Assembly: GCA_009691135.1 (NCBI GenBank)
Contig: SHVF01000001.1
Span: 33,649 to 97,648, forward strand
DNA length: 64,000 nucleotides
Direction of reading: 5' to 3'
From: Candidatus Planktophila sp.
GTDB taxonomy: Bacteria; Actinomycetota; Actinomycetes; Nanopelagicales; Nanopelagicaceae
Made by a program: the position numbers and the translations under genes. Every line of letters starts with the position of its first letter. Position 1 is the stretch's first letter. Positions 27,777-37,566 of the stretch are shown piece after piece. The notes below the pieces were generated by a model that made no database searches, had not been told where the DNA came from, and saw only the letters and a program-made list of their open reading frames with translations.

Positions 27777-28984
27777 GGCGTAACTTTCTTTATTCCGCGC
27801 GATAAATAACCCGTAAGAATTAACATCGCAACCGGATAGATCATGCCGATTGAAAGATTTGTGTATTGCGCAATAATTCCCGTAACAGTTGGACCAAAGA
27901 AGAAGCCAGCTATTCCGATGACGCCAACGCGCGAGATCGCAACTGCGGGTGCGATCCCAGGAGTCTTGCTCGCCGCCAAAATAAATGCCGGAAACATTGG
28001 ACCAATGCCAAGTCCTGCGGCAATGAAACCAATATTGACAATTATTAAGGCCGGGATTGGGTAGGTATCTGACATCGGAATTGCAATCAACATTGCGATC
28101 CCCCAGATAGCTCCACCTAAGTAACCACCTAATTGCACCAAACGCGCTGGCCCAAAATGATCTAGCGCGCGATCACCAAGGAAACGACTAACGATCATGG
28201 CCAGGGCAAAGGATGCAAAGGCAGATGCGTAAACACCTTTTTCATATCCCATTTCATCGCGCAATAAGATCGCGCCCCAATCACTTGCCGCACCCTCACC
28301 AACCAAACTAGAAAGCAAGCCAACGCCTAGCAACCAGAGCGGCATCACGCCTTTTCCAAATAGCGGAATTTTTGACTCGTGCTCTTCATCGCCTTTATGG
28401 CCATCAATCGTTCGTGGCAGTAAGTAATAAGCGGCTATCAAATAAGCAATAAGGGCAACTACGGCGATGGCAATCAAATTATCGCGCGGTGAAACATGGC
28501 GAGAAATAAGACCGCCGACTACGGTAGTTAAGAATGCACCGGTACTCCACATCGCATGAAATGAAGACATATGACGCCTACCTAAAATATTCTCGACAAC
28601 AGTGCCCTGAAAGTTGTAACACATATCAATTAGTGCATAACCAAAACCCATTGTGTAAAGCGTAAGAAATAAAGTCAGAGCGTTAGTTGCCAAACCCATG
28701 CCAGCCAGCCCGGCGGGCATAATAAAGACGCCCACAAAAATTGTCCGTTGAGAGCCATACATATGCATAAAACGCCCAGCTAATTGCGCACCCGTGATGG
28801 ATCCAAATGTGCTGCCCAATAAAACAAAGCCGAAGGCGCCATTTGATAACCCGATTGCATCTTTAATTTCCGGGATGCGAGGTACCCAACCCATCGAAAC
28901 CGTGCCGAGCAATAAGAAGCAGACCCATAAAGAATTGCGTGCTAATTTGGCACGATGTACTTGATCAAGTGCTCCGAGAGACAT
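27773..28984 (-). CDS. MFS transporter
   Basis: 403 aa from ATG at 28984 (MSLGALDQVHRAKLARN); the ORF-track start 11 codons upstream would lie inside ybaK. About 12 membrane segments, with the loop motif GAQLAGRFMHMYGSQR after segment 2. It resembles bacterial sugar-efflux-like or fucose-permease-like MFS proteins, but the substrate is not evident. TACCCT lies 6 nt before the ATG, implying leaderless mRNA from a promoter shared with ybaK. Confidence 0.85.
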   Translation of the reverse strand: MSLGALDQVHRAKLARNSLWVCFLLLGTVSMGWVPRIPEIKDAIGLSNGAFGFVLLGSTFGSITGAQLAGRFMHMYGSQRTIFVGVFIMPAGLAGMGLATNALTLFLTLYTMGFGYALIDMCYNFQGTVVENILGRRHMSSFHAMWSTGAFLTTVVGGLISRHVSPRDNLIAIAVVALIAYLIAAYYLLPRTIDGHKGDEEHESKIPLFGKGVMPLWLLGVGLLSSLVGEGAASDWGAILLRDEMGYEKGVYASAFASFALAMIVSRFLGDRALDHFGPARLVQLGGYLGGAIWGIAMLIAIPMSDTYPIPALIIVNIGFIAAGLGIGPMFPAFILAASKTPGIAPAVAISRVGVIGIAGFFFGPTVTGIIAQYTNLSIGMIYPVAMLILTGYLSRGIKKVTP

Positions 28985-29006
28985 TTGCCAAGGGTATCCT
29001 GCACCC
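28985..29006. promoter_or_regulatory. Bidirectional leaderless promoter, MFS / ybaK
   Basis: The whole intergenic region is 22 bp: ttgcca AGGGTATCCT gcaccc. On the minus strand TACCCT is 6 nt from the MFS ATG; on the plus strand TATCCT is 6 nt from the ybaK ATG. The two -10 hexamers share the central TA. The same geometry occurs between metF' and crtE. Confidence 0.6.
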
Positions 29007-29495
29007 ATGGATGGCATCTTAGAAAAGGCAGCGGTAAAGCGTTTTATTCAAGCCGCCATTGATCTCGGAGTAAATGGCCAAGTCACCGTTCTATCTGATA
29101 CCGCCCGCACTGCAGTCGATGCTGCCAACGGCCTTGGAATTGAAGTCGGACAAATTGCCTCTTCCCTTATCTTTAAATTGCCATCCGGTAATCCACTTTT
29201 AATTATTACTAGCGGACGACACCGAGTTGATACCGAACTTGTTGCAAAGAATTTAGGAATCGCTGAACTCGGCCGCGCGGACGCGAACTTTGTAAAAGAT
29301 GTCTCTGGTTACTCAGTTGGGGGCGTAGCTCCACTTGGTTGGATAAATCAACCTGAGAAAATACTTATCGATCAAGCGCTCAACGATTACGAAATTGTTT
29401 GGGCAGCATCTGGCCATCCACACGCTGTTTATCCAACTTCTTTTGCTGAGTTAATTACCTGTACAGGTGCAACACCTATGGTTGTTGGCGATTAG
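29007..29495 (+). CDS. YbaK/EbsC family aminoacyl-tRNA deacylase
   Basis: 162 aa single-domain editing protein. The family hydrolyses mischarged aminoacyl-tRNA, typically Cys- or Ala-tRNA-Pro. The core lysine-bearing segment IASSLIFKLPSGNPLLIITSG and the glycine-rich VSGYSVGGVAPLGW are visible. No ribosome binding site, and the ATG is 6 nt from TATCCT, so the mRNA is probably leaderless. Its TAG shares TTAG with the arsC stop. Confidence 0.92.
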   Translation: MDGILEKAAVKRFIQAAIDLGVNGQVTVLSDTARTAVDAANGLGIEVGQIASSLIFKLPSGNPLLIITSGRHRVDTELVAKNLGIAELGRADANFVKDVSGYSVGGVAPLGWINQPEKILIDQALNDYEIVWAASGHPHAVYPTSFAELITCTGATPMVVGD

Positions 29496-34001: not shown

Positions 34002-35512
34002 GCCAAATGAAAAAGCAGGTTGCCGTAATTGGCGCCGGCATGGGTGGAATGTGCACCGCAGCTCGTCTGGCCAAGGCTGGCTATGACGTGACTGTATTTG
34101 AATCATCTGATCGACATGGCGGAAAATGCCGCACCGAATGGATCGGAAATTACGCTTTTGATACTGGCCCATCTTTATTAACTCTTCCAGCCGTTTACCG
34201 TGACTTCTTTCAACGTACCGGTGATGTCATGGGTCGAGTGCTAGAACTCGAGAGCGTTAGCCCATCATTTGATTATCGCTTTAGCGATGGCACTTCCGTT
34301 AAATTCGCCAACCTATCGCGCAAAGAAACCTTGGCCGCGATTGAGACTTCTATGGGCAGCGCATCGGCTTTGGAGTGGGATCAAGTTATGCGCCAAGCCG
34401 AATCCATGTGGGATGTCTCGCGCGAGCCATTTGTGGAATCGGAGCTTAAATCAATTGCCTCGCTCTTGAAACGTCCTACCTTGCTGCGCGATCTGCGGAT
34501 AATTGCTCCATGGAAGTCTCTGCGCCAGATCAAATTAAAAGATGGCCGGCTACGCAACATTTTGGACCGCTATGCAACCTACAGTGGATCTGATCCACGT
34601 GTTGCACCTGCAGTTCTGTCATCGATTGCCTTTGTAGAAGAAGCATTTGGCGCTTGGCATATCAAAGGCGGAGTAGGAAAATTATCCGATGCTGTTTATC
34701 AGCGTTGTCTCGACCGCGGTGTGAAATTTGAATTTAACGTTGAGGTGTCCCAGATAAATCATGATGGCAGCCGCGTAAATGGAATTACTTTGGTCGATGG
34801 CCGCTCATTGGACTTTGCAACGGTTGTAGCAAACGCTGATGCGTCGCTGGTATATAACAAGTTAATCACTGGCAAGGTTAAGAAATTGCGCAAACAGCGC
34901 GCTGACTTAGCGAAGGCTGATCCATCACTTGCCGGCTTCTCGTTATTGCTTGGGTTGCGCCCGAGCGAGACGGACTCTGGGTTGTCCCATCACAATATTT
35001 TCTTTCCTGAAAATTATGAAAGCGAATTCATAGATATTTTTGACCGCAAAAAGCCAGTAGAAGATCCTGCGATTTATATCTGCGCACCACGCGATGAAAC
35101 AATGGTTAAACACGCCGGGCATGAAGCCTGGTTCATATTAATTAATGCACCTCGCCACGATGTATCGGGCGCCGATGGCTTTGATTGGAACGATAAAGAC
35201 TTTAACCAACGTTATGCAATGCAGATTATCGATTCGCTGGAAGCGCGCGGTATTTCAATTCGCAATCGGTTAGAGCTTTTAGAAATCCGCACGCCTGCAG
35301 ATTTAGAACGATCCGTTATGGCCCCAGGTGGGGCAATTTATGGAACTTCTAGCAATGGTGCACGCTCAGCATTTATGCGGGCTAAGAATCGTTCACCATT
35401 GCAGGGTTTGTATTGTGTTGGTGGTTCTGCCCATCCAGGAGGCGGGTTGCCGCTGGTTGGTCTAAGCGCTGAAATCGTTACGGAGGCGATTGTGGGCAAA
35501 GCGCGCCACTAG
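33998..35512 (+). CDS. CrtI/CrtD-family carotenoid desaturase
   Basis: 504 aa from ATG at 33998, overlapping the GT2 stop; the ORF track adds 6 residues. FAD-binding N-terminus VAVIGAGMGGMCTAARLAKAG and the substrate-entry segment FDTGPSLLTLPAVY mark a CrtI-type desaturase; the C-terminus GLYCVGGSAHPGGGLPLVG is typical. A separate crtI lies downstream, and this copy is linked to cruF, so a CrtD-like 3,4-desaturation of hydroxy-carotenoid is inferred. Its 3' end overlaps the convergent gene by 51 bp. Confidence 0.85.
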   Translation: MSQMKKQVAVIGAGMGGMCTAARLAKAGYDVTVFESSDRHGGKCRTEWIGNYAFDTGPSLLTLPAVYRDFFQRTGDVMGRVLELESVSPSFDYRFSDGTSVKFANLSRKETLAAIETSMGSASALEWDQVMRQAESMWDVSREPFVESELKSIASLLKRPTLLRDLRIIAPWKSLRQIKLKDGRLRNILDRYATYSGSDPRVAPAVLSSIAFVEEAFGAWHIKGGVGKLSDAVYQRCLDRGVKFEFNVEVSQINHDGSRVNGITLVDGRSLDFATVVANADASLVYNKLITGKVKKLRKQRADLAKADPSLAGFSLLLGLRPSETDSGLSHHNIFFPENYESEFIDIFDRKKPVEDPAIYICAPRDETMVKHAGHEAWFILINAPRHDVSGADGFDWNDKDFNQRYAMQIIDSLEARGISIRNRLELLEIRTPADLERSVMAPGGAIYGTSSNGARSAFMRAKNRSPLQGLYCVGGSAHPGGGLPLVGLSAEIVTEAIVGKARH

Positions 35513-36094
35513 ATAAAAACTCCACAGTTGCAAAATAAATAGCACAGCCATCACGGCACCAACTAGATTCAAAGAAAAAGCATAAGAAACAAGTGCGATG
35601 AAGATAAAGCTGGCTCGCACTGGACGTTCTGCGGGAGTTACAACACCAACATCACTTATTCCCAAACCACCGAGTCGTGCTCGTGCATATTCTTGAGTAG
35701 AAGCGATTACGTAGGTAACCAAAACCAACCAAGCAGGTGCACCGATCCGGTATGCGACGTAAAACCAGAGAGCTTCGCTAATTCGATCCGCAACCGAATC
35801 CAGAATCGCGCCAAATGAACTGCTGCGATCTTGATAAATAGCAACGCTACCGTCGATGCCATCGGCGTAAAGAGAGAGAACGAGCAGTGGAATAGTCCAG
35901 AGTGATAGTGGATTTACCGCCATAGCAATAGCAAATACTAATCCGAGTAGCGTTAGAAAATTTGGACTAATTCTTAGGGAGGATACGACTTTAGCTGATG
36001 CATAAGAAATAGCGAGCCAGGTTTTTACAACGCCTTTGATTTCGGCGCCGCCATGAAGGACACTCCAAGCAGAGTTGAAATCAGATTTATTCAT
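35462..36094 (-). CDS. CDP-alcohol phosphatidyltransferase family protein
   Basis: 210 aa membrane enzyme family that transfers a phosphoalcohol from or onto CDP-activated lipids. The catalytic motif DGIDGSVAIYQDRSSSFG followed by AILDSVADR keeps all four metal aspartates and the glycines, but the usual Arg after the Ala (DG-x2-AR) is Ile. Substrate unknown. The start overlaps the metF remnant stop (ATGA), so it was, and may still be, expressed from the metF promoter. Confidence 0.85.
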   Translation of the reverse strand: MNKSDFNSAWSVLHGGAEIKGVVKTWLAISYASAKVVSSLRISPNFLTLLGLVFAIAMAVNPLSLWTIPLLVLSLYADGIDGSVAIYQDRSSSFGAILDSVADRISEALWFYVAYRIGAPAWLVLVTYVIASTQEYARARLGGLGISDVGVVTPAERPVRASFIFIALVSYAFSLNLVGAVMAVLFILQLWSFYLVARFAHNRLRNDFSA

Positions 36095-36458
36095 GACCTT
36101 TTCTTATCTTTAATCTGCGCAAATATTTCTTGTGTAGCAGTGGATGTGTTCATTGTGTAAAAGTGCAATCCTGGGACTCCCGCTTCTAATAAATCTTCAC
36201 AGAGTTTGGTGGCAAGCCGCAAGTCAGATGCGCAACGACTGGCAATTTAGTGTGTTCGGTGATCTCGGATGTGATGCGAATTGTGCGTTCGCGAGTCGTT
36301 CCACCTGCGCAGCAAGTGACTGATATGAAATCTGGGGCGATCGGCTCGAGCGCACTAATTGCGCTCCAGAGGCGATCTTCCCCCTCTTGATCCTTCGGTG
36401 GGAAGAATTCAAAGGAGTACGTGACGCTCTCGCCAATTCCAGTCATACGCATCTCCAT
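36091..36458 (-). pseudogene. metF: 5,10-methylenetetrahydrofolate reductase remnant with internal deletion
   Basis: The N-terminal part from ATG at 36458 reads YSFEFFPPKDQEGED ... DFISVTCCAGG ... VVAHLTC, clear MetF. It then shifts frame and stops after GLPPNSVKIY. In another frame the same strand encodes the normal MetF C-terminus ATKLCEDLLEAGVPGLHFYT ... and stops at 36091. About 160-170 central residues of the TIM barrel are missing, with CTTGC repeated at the junction. The product cannot fold as a reductase. Either a real deletion pseudogene or an assembly error. Confidence 0.88.
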
Positions 36459-36480
36459 GCGGTCAGGGTACCGTTGCGCC
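36459..36480. promoter_or_regulatory. Bidirectional leaderless promoter, metF' / crtE
   Basis: The 22-bp intergenic region is gcggtc AGGGTACCGT tgcgcc. Minus-strand TACCCT is 6 nt from the metF' ATG and plus-strand TACCGT is 6 nt from the crtE GTG; both share the central TA. Geometry is identical to the MFS/ybaK module. Confidence 0.6.
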
Positions 36481-37566
36481 GTGGTTAATGATGCGCGTGG
36501 CACGCTCCTTCAAGTGCGTGAGCAGGTTCATAGCGAACTGACCTCATATTTAACCTTGCAGCGCGAATACCTAAGTGGCATCGGCTCTGAATTAATTCCG
36601 GTTTGTGATGCTCTCGAATCTTTCCTGCTCGAAGGTGGCAAAAGGTTGCGACCGCTATTTGCATATGCCGGGTTCGCCGCAACCGGCAAAGTTGCAACGG
36701 CTGCAGATATTCGCGCTTTCACAAGTTTGGAATTATTACAAGCATGCGCGCTAATTCATGATGACTTAATGGATCGCTCGGATACGCGCCGCGGCAAACC
36801 AGCGATACATCGCCACTTCGAAAATTTGCACCAATCTGAGGCGATGAATGGATTAGCAGATCAATTTGGTGAAGCCGCCGCGGTATTGCTCGGAGATCTA
36901 GCGCTAGTTTGGTCTGATCACTTGCTTCACACATCAGGTGTTTCCGATTCGGCGCTTTTATCTGCACTTTCGGTGCACGATGAGATGCGCATCGAATTAA
37001 TGGCTGGTCAATATTTAGATGTTCGCGAAGCTGGTGAGAAAACTCCCAGTGTTGATCGCTCACTGCGCATCGCGCGTTATAAATCCGGAAAATACACAAT
37101 CGAGCGACCACTTCATCTAGGTGCTTCACTGGCCATCACTAGTCCCAATGAAAGATCCCAATTAATAAATGTCTTAAGTGCCTACGGTCTACCGCTCGGT
37201 GAAGCATTCCAGCTTCGTGATGACATCCTGGGCATCTTCGGTGACCCATCGGTTACTGGCAAGCCAGCCGGTGATGATATTCGCGAAGGCAAACGAACTG
37301 TGCTGATGGCGATGACTCTAGAGCGCGCAGACCAACAGGCTTCGGCCAAGATAACCGCAGCACTCGGTCGCGAGGATTTAACCTCTGATCAGATTGATGA
37401 AATTCGCGGACTAATCACAGCAACTGGCGCTGTTAAAGATGTCGAAGATCTCATCGAGGGCTTGCTTTCCAACGCGCTAACTGCGGCAAACTCTGCTGAA
37501 ATTAACCCTTCAGCCCGTGAGTTACTGACTGAGCTCGCAACAACTGCAATCCGTAGGAGCCATTAA
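36481..37566 (+). CDS. crtE: Geranylgeranyl diphosphate synthase
   Basis: 361 aa from a GTG at 36481; the ORF-track start 20 codons upstream lies inside metF'. trans-Prenyltransferase making the C20 precursor of carotenoids. First Asp-rich motif in IHDDLMDRSDTRRGKPAIH, second in FQLRDDILGIFGD, and GGKRLRPLFAYAG near the N-terminus. No ribosome binding site; a -10 TACCGT 6 nt upstream suggests leaderless mRNA. Its stop abuts crtI. Confidence 0.93.
   Translation: MVNDARGTLLQVREQVHSELTSYLTLQREYLSGIGSELIPVCDALESFLLEGGKRLRPLFAYAGFAATGKVATAADIRAFTSLELLQACALIHDDLMDRSDTRRGKPAIHRHFENLHQSEAMNGLADQFGEAAAVLLGDLALVWSDHLLHTSGVSDSALLSALSVHDEMRIELMAGQYLDVREAGEKTPSVDRSLRIARYKSGKYTIERPLHLGASLAITSPNERSQLINVLSAYGLPLGEAFQLRDDILGIFGDPSVTGKPAGDDIREGKRTVLMAMTLERADQQASAKITAALGREDLTSDQIDEIRGLITATGAVKDVEDLIEGLLSNALTAANSAEINPSARELLTELATTAIRRSH

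Follow-up and report, generated by a model that had tools for sequence, protein, structure and literature searches.

A 22-bp gap between a broken metF gene (metF') and crtE, in a 64,000-nucleotide window (the whole stretch of DNA analysed) from a Candidatus Planktophila draft genome, holds a promoter-like element that is well conserved in relatives. We consider the element real and of a known kind, the bidirectional promoter with overlapping −10 boxes, here in an unusually compact form in which, as far as the sequence can tell, both transcripts would be leaderless. The account that we regard as probable is that of a bidirectional leaderless promoter beside which metF has been lost repeatedly, and whose metF arm has mostly been kept, through bases shared with crtE and through inheritance of the arm by the downstream CDP-alcohol phosphatidyltransferase gene (cdp).

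Anatomy and conservation of the metF'/crtE gap

Direct reading of the window gives CATGCGGTCAGGGTACCGTTGCGCCGTG at positions 36456–36483, a layout of CAT-N6-AGGGTACCGT-N6-GTG. Read on the minus strand, CAT (36456–36458) is the metF' ATG; GTG (36481–36483) is the crtE start on the plus strand, and the gap between them consists of gcggtc (36459–36464), AGGGTACCGT (36465–36474) and tgcgcc (36475–36480). The core of AGGGTACCGT, GGTACC, is a palindrome. On both sides exactly 6 nt separate a TANNNT box from its start codon, and the TA at 36469–36470 is common to both −10 boxes, which overlap reciprocally as those of a bidirectional promoter do. TA and GG/CC serve both boxes, and the metF arm has one private base, the T of TACCCT. 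The predicted transcript starts, 36458 (minus) and 36481 (plus), are 23 bp apart. The sequence-only reading had described this gap, its coordinates and a spacing identical to that of an MFS/ybaK gap in the same window, and on re-reading all of these were exact. The features are as follows.

36456–36458, minus strand: metF' start codon (ATG), also the predicted start of a leaderless minus transcript, from direct sequence; RTG in the same place in 76 of 77 metF-intact relatives
36465–36470, minus strand: −10 box TACCCT of the arm for metF and the CDP-alcohol phosphotransferase gene; TANNNT in 77/77 metF-intact relatives, private T (plus-strand A36465) invariant
36469–36474, plus strand: −10 box TACCGT of the crtE arm; TANNNT 6 nt from the crtE GTG in 110/110 genomes scored with strict spacing
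36481–37566, plus strand: crtE, polyprenyl synthetase (PF00348, 3.9e-49); predicted leaderless start at GTG 36481, kept in relatives
35462–36094, minus strand: cdp (PF01066, 3.4e-11), downstream of metF' here and behind metF in relatives
28982–29009, between divergent genes: first copy of the geometry, between an MFS transporter gene (start 28984, minus) and a ybaK-like gene (start 29007, plus), with spacing identical to metF'/crtE

A TANNNT box 6 nt before the start codon (~12 bp upstream) marks leaderless genes of Actinobacteria (PMC3160421; PMC3898074). In the 64-kb window, to which our leaderless-gene statistics apply, 10 of 58 genes have such a box, vs 3 of 506 internal RTG codons. Bidirectional promoters arise from overlapping −10 elements (PMC10268837), and 23 bp is one common spacing of those in E. 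coli (PMC12825309). We propose that the gap is a minimal bidirectional promoter, at which RNA polymerase would bind in either orientation at two −10 boxes with a common TA. The two transcripts would then begin with the first base of their respective start codons, those of metF and crtE, 23 bp from each other, and both mRNAs would be leaderless. The element would be an old one in the family, reading crtE and its followers in one direction and a metF-cdp operon in the other. Both promoters and both translation starts would thus be fixed by 28 bp of sequence, which makes the element compact and testable.

Conservation was scored in the genus, where 110 genomes were scorable with the strict 6-nt crtE spacing, 77 of them with intact metF. 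TANNNT was found on both strands in all 77, and an RTG exactly 6 nt past the minus box in 76, which gives metF, too, a TANNNT ~12 bp upstream. On the crtE side, TANNNT is kept 6–7 nt before the GTG in relatives and again lies ~12 bp upstream; in about ten additional genomes with intact metF the arrangement persists, the crtE spacer being 7 nt long. The 77 genomes hold 33 distinct 28-mers, across which the shared T and A, the private base of each box, the C at position 4 of the plus box and the crtE GTG are invariant. The arrangement is also present in most other genera of the family that were sampled. These counts run over related genomes and hence are not independent. CrtE identity falls to about 53% across the compared genomes, and the proteins have thus diverged much more than the 10-bp core. 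The comparison with metF-intact relatives had been proposed in the sequence-only reading, with a different crtE start or an unconserved −10 as the outcomes that would speak against that reading; relatives proved to have the same crtE GTG and the same −10.

Public MAG records titled Bifidobacterium breve (L127, L150, L153, L194 and L202) carry a promoter of the Planktophila type. Their titles look mislabelled, and L127 and L150 are apparent counterparts of G099:C31 and G007:C15.

Much of the metF-side box is given by symmetry alone, TA and GG/CC being common to both boxes, and one might suppose that the crtE box is the sole promoter, that symmetry accounts for the metF-side box, and that transcription of metF-cdp begins elsewhere. 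The private T of the metF box is nevertheless kept in all 77 metF-intact genomes, and the RTG stands 6 nt after it in 76. Moreover, the metF start lies within the gap, hence there is no space for another leader, and the RTG is mostly gone once metF is lost (it remains in 7 of 30 such genomes). We therefore judge a crtE-only promoter to be improbable. Still less probable is that GGTACC is a regulator binding site or some other palindromic element instead of a −10 pair. Its core is indeed palindromic and strongly conserved, but in several lineages it has become GATATC or AGTATC with both TANNNT boxes and the spacing unbroken, other divergent pairs show the same geometry with different cores, and the distance to both start codons is fixed.

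The MFS/ybaK copy has the layout CAT-N6-AGGGTATCCT-N6-ATG, and its 28-mer recurs in relatives G001, G058 and G030 with one or two changes. The pattern CAYN6ANNNTANNNTN6RTG occurs twice in the window, vs 0.28 expected, a count of 2 being reached in 2 of 100 shuffles. In the 1.14-Mb draft genome it has four occurrences, vs two for a reversed-pattern control. With a slightly tighter pattern, 61 genus genomes gave 218 strand-matches vs 71 in the control. Three of the four places in the draft genome lie between real divergent genes, namely MFS/ybaK, metF/crtE and a choline-kinase-like/FAD-oxidoreductase pair. The two-box geometry is enriched, which is suggestive, but alone it is weak evidence at any single site; at the metF'/crtE gap, chance is ruled out by the base-level conservation in relatives.

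The choline-kinase-like and FAD-dependent oxidoreductase genes, named from reading their sequences and not from a family search, flank a third interlocked 22-bp geometry (L035 1501–1528; G000:C37:2351–2378), which is also present in relative G053 (L352 1041). A further recurrent interlocked core, TTAAGGGTACCTTT, lies between an MgtE/CBS-type gene and an EamA-type transporter gene in many genus genomes (L345 1282–1320; G057:C16).

The broken metF of the source genome

The metF' gene consists of two pieces.

36218–36458, minus strand: 5' remnant, about 80 codons of MTHFR (PF02219 positions 9–79); its YGAGG motif, YGAGG or FGAGG in 87/87 metF copies examined, now reads CCAGG
36217–36218: junction of the deletion, which removes 514 bp relative to G080 and shifts the frame; split alignment 1–123/124–426 to G080 and G082
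36092–36217, minus strand: 3' remnant, the last ~40 codons, in another frame (PF02219 positions 251–286); protein identical to G080 and G082

PF02219 matches metF' only at positions 9–79 and 251–286, in different frames, and the coding sequence is disrupted relative to intact orthologues, as in a pseudogene, in one MAG in which an assembly error is possible. Among the 135 genus genomes, none of the 134 others spans the junction. Against the nearest relatives, the 5' piece shows dS of 0.40–0.53 and dN/dS of 0.05–0.08, and the 3' piece shows no amino-acid change (dN/dS 0). The low dN/dS at such dS implies that metF was under selection along nearly the whole branch, and the deletion would thus seem to be either too young for the arm to have decayed or an assembly error.

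The sequence-only reading had offered this locus as a case in which promoter sharing preserves transcription of a pseudogene. We do not uphold it as such a case. The deletion is private to a draft MAG and the remnants carry the mark of purifying selection, leaving no time for decay, so the intact arm here is no evidence of preservation by sharing; metF' does not combine long-standing gene decay with a maintained promoter arm. In the source MAG, with its very recent deletion or assembly error, the intact arm would simply not have decayed yet and would still transcribe metF' and cdp.

An assembly error, with an intact metF in the real genome, is an alternative that we think rather unlikely. The deletion is found only in one MAG, 81% complete and in 57 contigs, and a comparable case exists in G081, whose metF has a 26-bp deletion at a strain-mosaic junction (L342 1–600) where a second contig (L343) starts. 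We had considered G081 as a second natural metF pseudogene and dropped it as probably an assembly artefact. In the source genome, however, the 5' remnant has also changed YG to CC in the motif kept in all 87 copies, which fits loss of function and could also be an error, and the missing middle of metF has no copy elsewhere in the assembly. The source genome (G000; 81% complete) also yielded no cobalamin-dependent methionine synthase, an enzyme that its three nearest relatives have.

Natural metF losses and the fate of the orphan arm

Losses of metF in relatives are a natural experiment on the fate of half a shared promoter after gene loss; many species and several distinct deletions allow asking whether the arm is kept by physical sharing, by inheritance by the next gene, or not at all. 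The test set comprised 30 genus genomes that have crtE and cdp but in which no metF could be recognised in between. Of these, 30/30 retain the crtE box, 27/30 the metF-side box and 7/30 an RTG after the metF-side box. Assuming no regain, the crtE-cdp tree, in which some nodes are weak, implies about ten losses of metF, which left at least eight different scars; since metF-less G015 has intact G083 as a neighbour on the tree, recombination is possible.

Two outcomes were observed. In 13 of the 30 genomes metF has been lost entirely and cdp follows immediately on the arm, which is kept in all 13. Here cdp is either fused in frame to the first 5–6 metF codons (G077 and G017/G090/G095) or begins 46–51 nt from the arm (G107 and the G014 group, the latter with a Shine-Dalgarno sequence of the AGAAAGG type ahead of cdp). 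In the other 17, cdp is 97–198 nt away and the last 20–30 codons of metF remain; 14 of these genomes keep the arm, and in the remaining three (G041, G044 and G108) it is broken. The remnants of this second class carry CTTCTATACTATGAAT (HFYTMN codons) 47–58 nt before cdp, and the TATACT in this retained 3' end would be a −10 box. The retained metF 3' end thus has a TANNNT-like box of its own, so cdp may not need the arm in these 17 genomes. The same TATACT occurs in 10 of 12 metF-intact genomes of the metF-losing clade vs 7 of 76 others, a difference confounded by phylogeny and codon choice. We had earlier supposed that a new cdp promoter evolved in metF-less class C genomes, and replaced this idea on finding that TATACT lies in metF's own retained 3' codons.

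Examples of the metF 3' TATACT are L304 and L295, and of metF-less loci L053, L055 and L049. Two genomes of other genera also lack metF beside crtE (L331, L337), one with cdp adjacent (G166) and one with cdp 161 nt away (G162); the palindromic core is kept in both.

The enzyme encoded by metF may have become redundant through a distant second MTHFR. Among the metF-less genomes searched for PF02219, 22 of 25 encode such a protein (about 90 bits), which in the searched genomes was otherwise found only in one clade, where both MTHFRs are present. Among NCBIfam models the bifunctional homocysteine S-methyltransferase/MTHFR comes nearest to it, and the following copy may serve as an example.

L340 1728–2573 (G014:C1:932227–933072): second MTHFR of G014, about 93 bits to PF02219

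Cobalamin-dependent methionine synthase is absent from metF-less G014, G015 and G095, and MetE was found in none of seven genomes (these three, the three nearest relatives of the source genome and the source genome itself).

We propose that metF is dispensable in several lineages and has been deleted repeatedly, while crtE holds on to its arm, and that the opposite arm would mostly survive through its bases in common with the crtE arm and through the ability of cdp to inherit it. Decay of most of the metF-side box would harm crtE, as TA and GG/CC belong to both arms. For the same reason selection on the metF-side box is not measurable from these bases; only the T of TACCCT is private, so retention of the metF arm is weak evidence of function. 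Nor does sharing force retention, because the three relatives named above broke the metF-side box with the crtE box intact, in at least two separate losses in which the private T disappeared (G041; G044/G108). Sharing thus helps retention without forcing it, probably by reducing the number of bases free to change, and inheritance by cdp would explain the full retention where cdp is adjacent. The earlier suggestion that crtE and cdp are the reason for keeping the arm accordingly finds support in the relatives, where 27 of 30 metF-side boxes are kept, 13 of them with cdp adjoining; the locus in the window lends it none.

The relatives also bear on whether the metF pseudogene in the window stays transcribed because its promoter is shared with crtE. 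An intact arm at metF'/crtE, three key bases common to both boxes, at which mutations would hurt crtE too, and 27 of 30 arms kept after metF loss all speak for this. Yet the pseudogene is private and recent (dN/dS 0–0.08 vs dS of 0.4–0.5), so retention needs no explaining here; the only private base has disappeared from G041 and G044/G108, whose crtE box is unbroken; and retention is complete (13/13) exactly where cdp positionally depends on the arm. We consider such preservation at this locus distinctly unlikely, and favour partial sharing combined with inheritance by cdp in the relatives. A more general proposal, which we put forward tentatively and hold to be somewhat short of even odds, is that the dual-leaderless interlocked promoter of Planktophila outlives a gene, the orphan arm passing to the next gene through a short leader or an in-frame fusion, or else the metF 3' TATACT box serving cdp. 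A literature search of partial coverage returned nothing on point for the retention of shared promoters after gene loss in bacteria.

Comparison with known systems

Bidirectional, symmetry-based promoters have divergent starts 7–25 bp apart and overlapping −10 elements (Warman et al. 2021 as cited in PMC10268837; PMC12825309). The Planktophila element resembles the 23-bp class in E. coli in its overlapping −10s and in the spacing of its predicted starts. The E. coli promoters are most often spaced at 18 bp, and their second RNA is frequently antisense; in Planktophila, by contrast, the two RNAs would each be leaderless and the mRNA of a conserved gene, and the element is kept across the family. 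With the TANNNT leaderless genes of Actinobacteria (PMC3160421; PMC3898074) it shares the box ~12 bp upstream and the lack of space for a Shine-Dalgarno sequence. Unlike ordinary genes of that type, two such genes stand back to back with one common box core. In M. tuberculosis, divergent promoters occur in close juxtaposition and one divergent pair, prpD/Rv1129c, is leaderless, but an interlock of the present kind is not described there (PMC3898074).

As in the transcribed pseudogenes of Mycobacterium leprae (PMC2753549) and Sodalis (PMC7067036), a broken gene would be expected to be transcribed where its promoter or operon is still in place. The Planktophila case differs in that a specific shared element may explain the retention, and in that the evidence is comparative and comes from gene loss, not from RNA.
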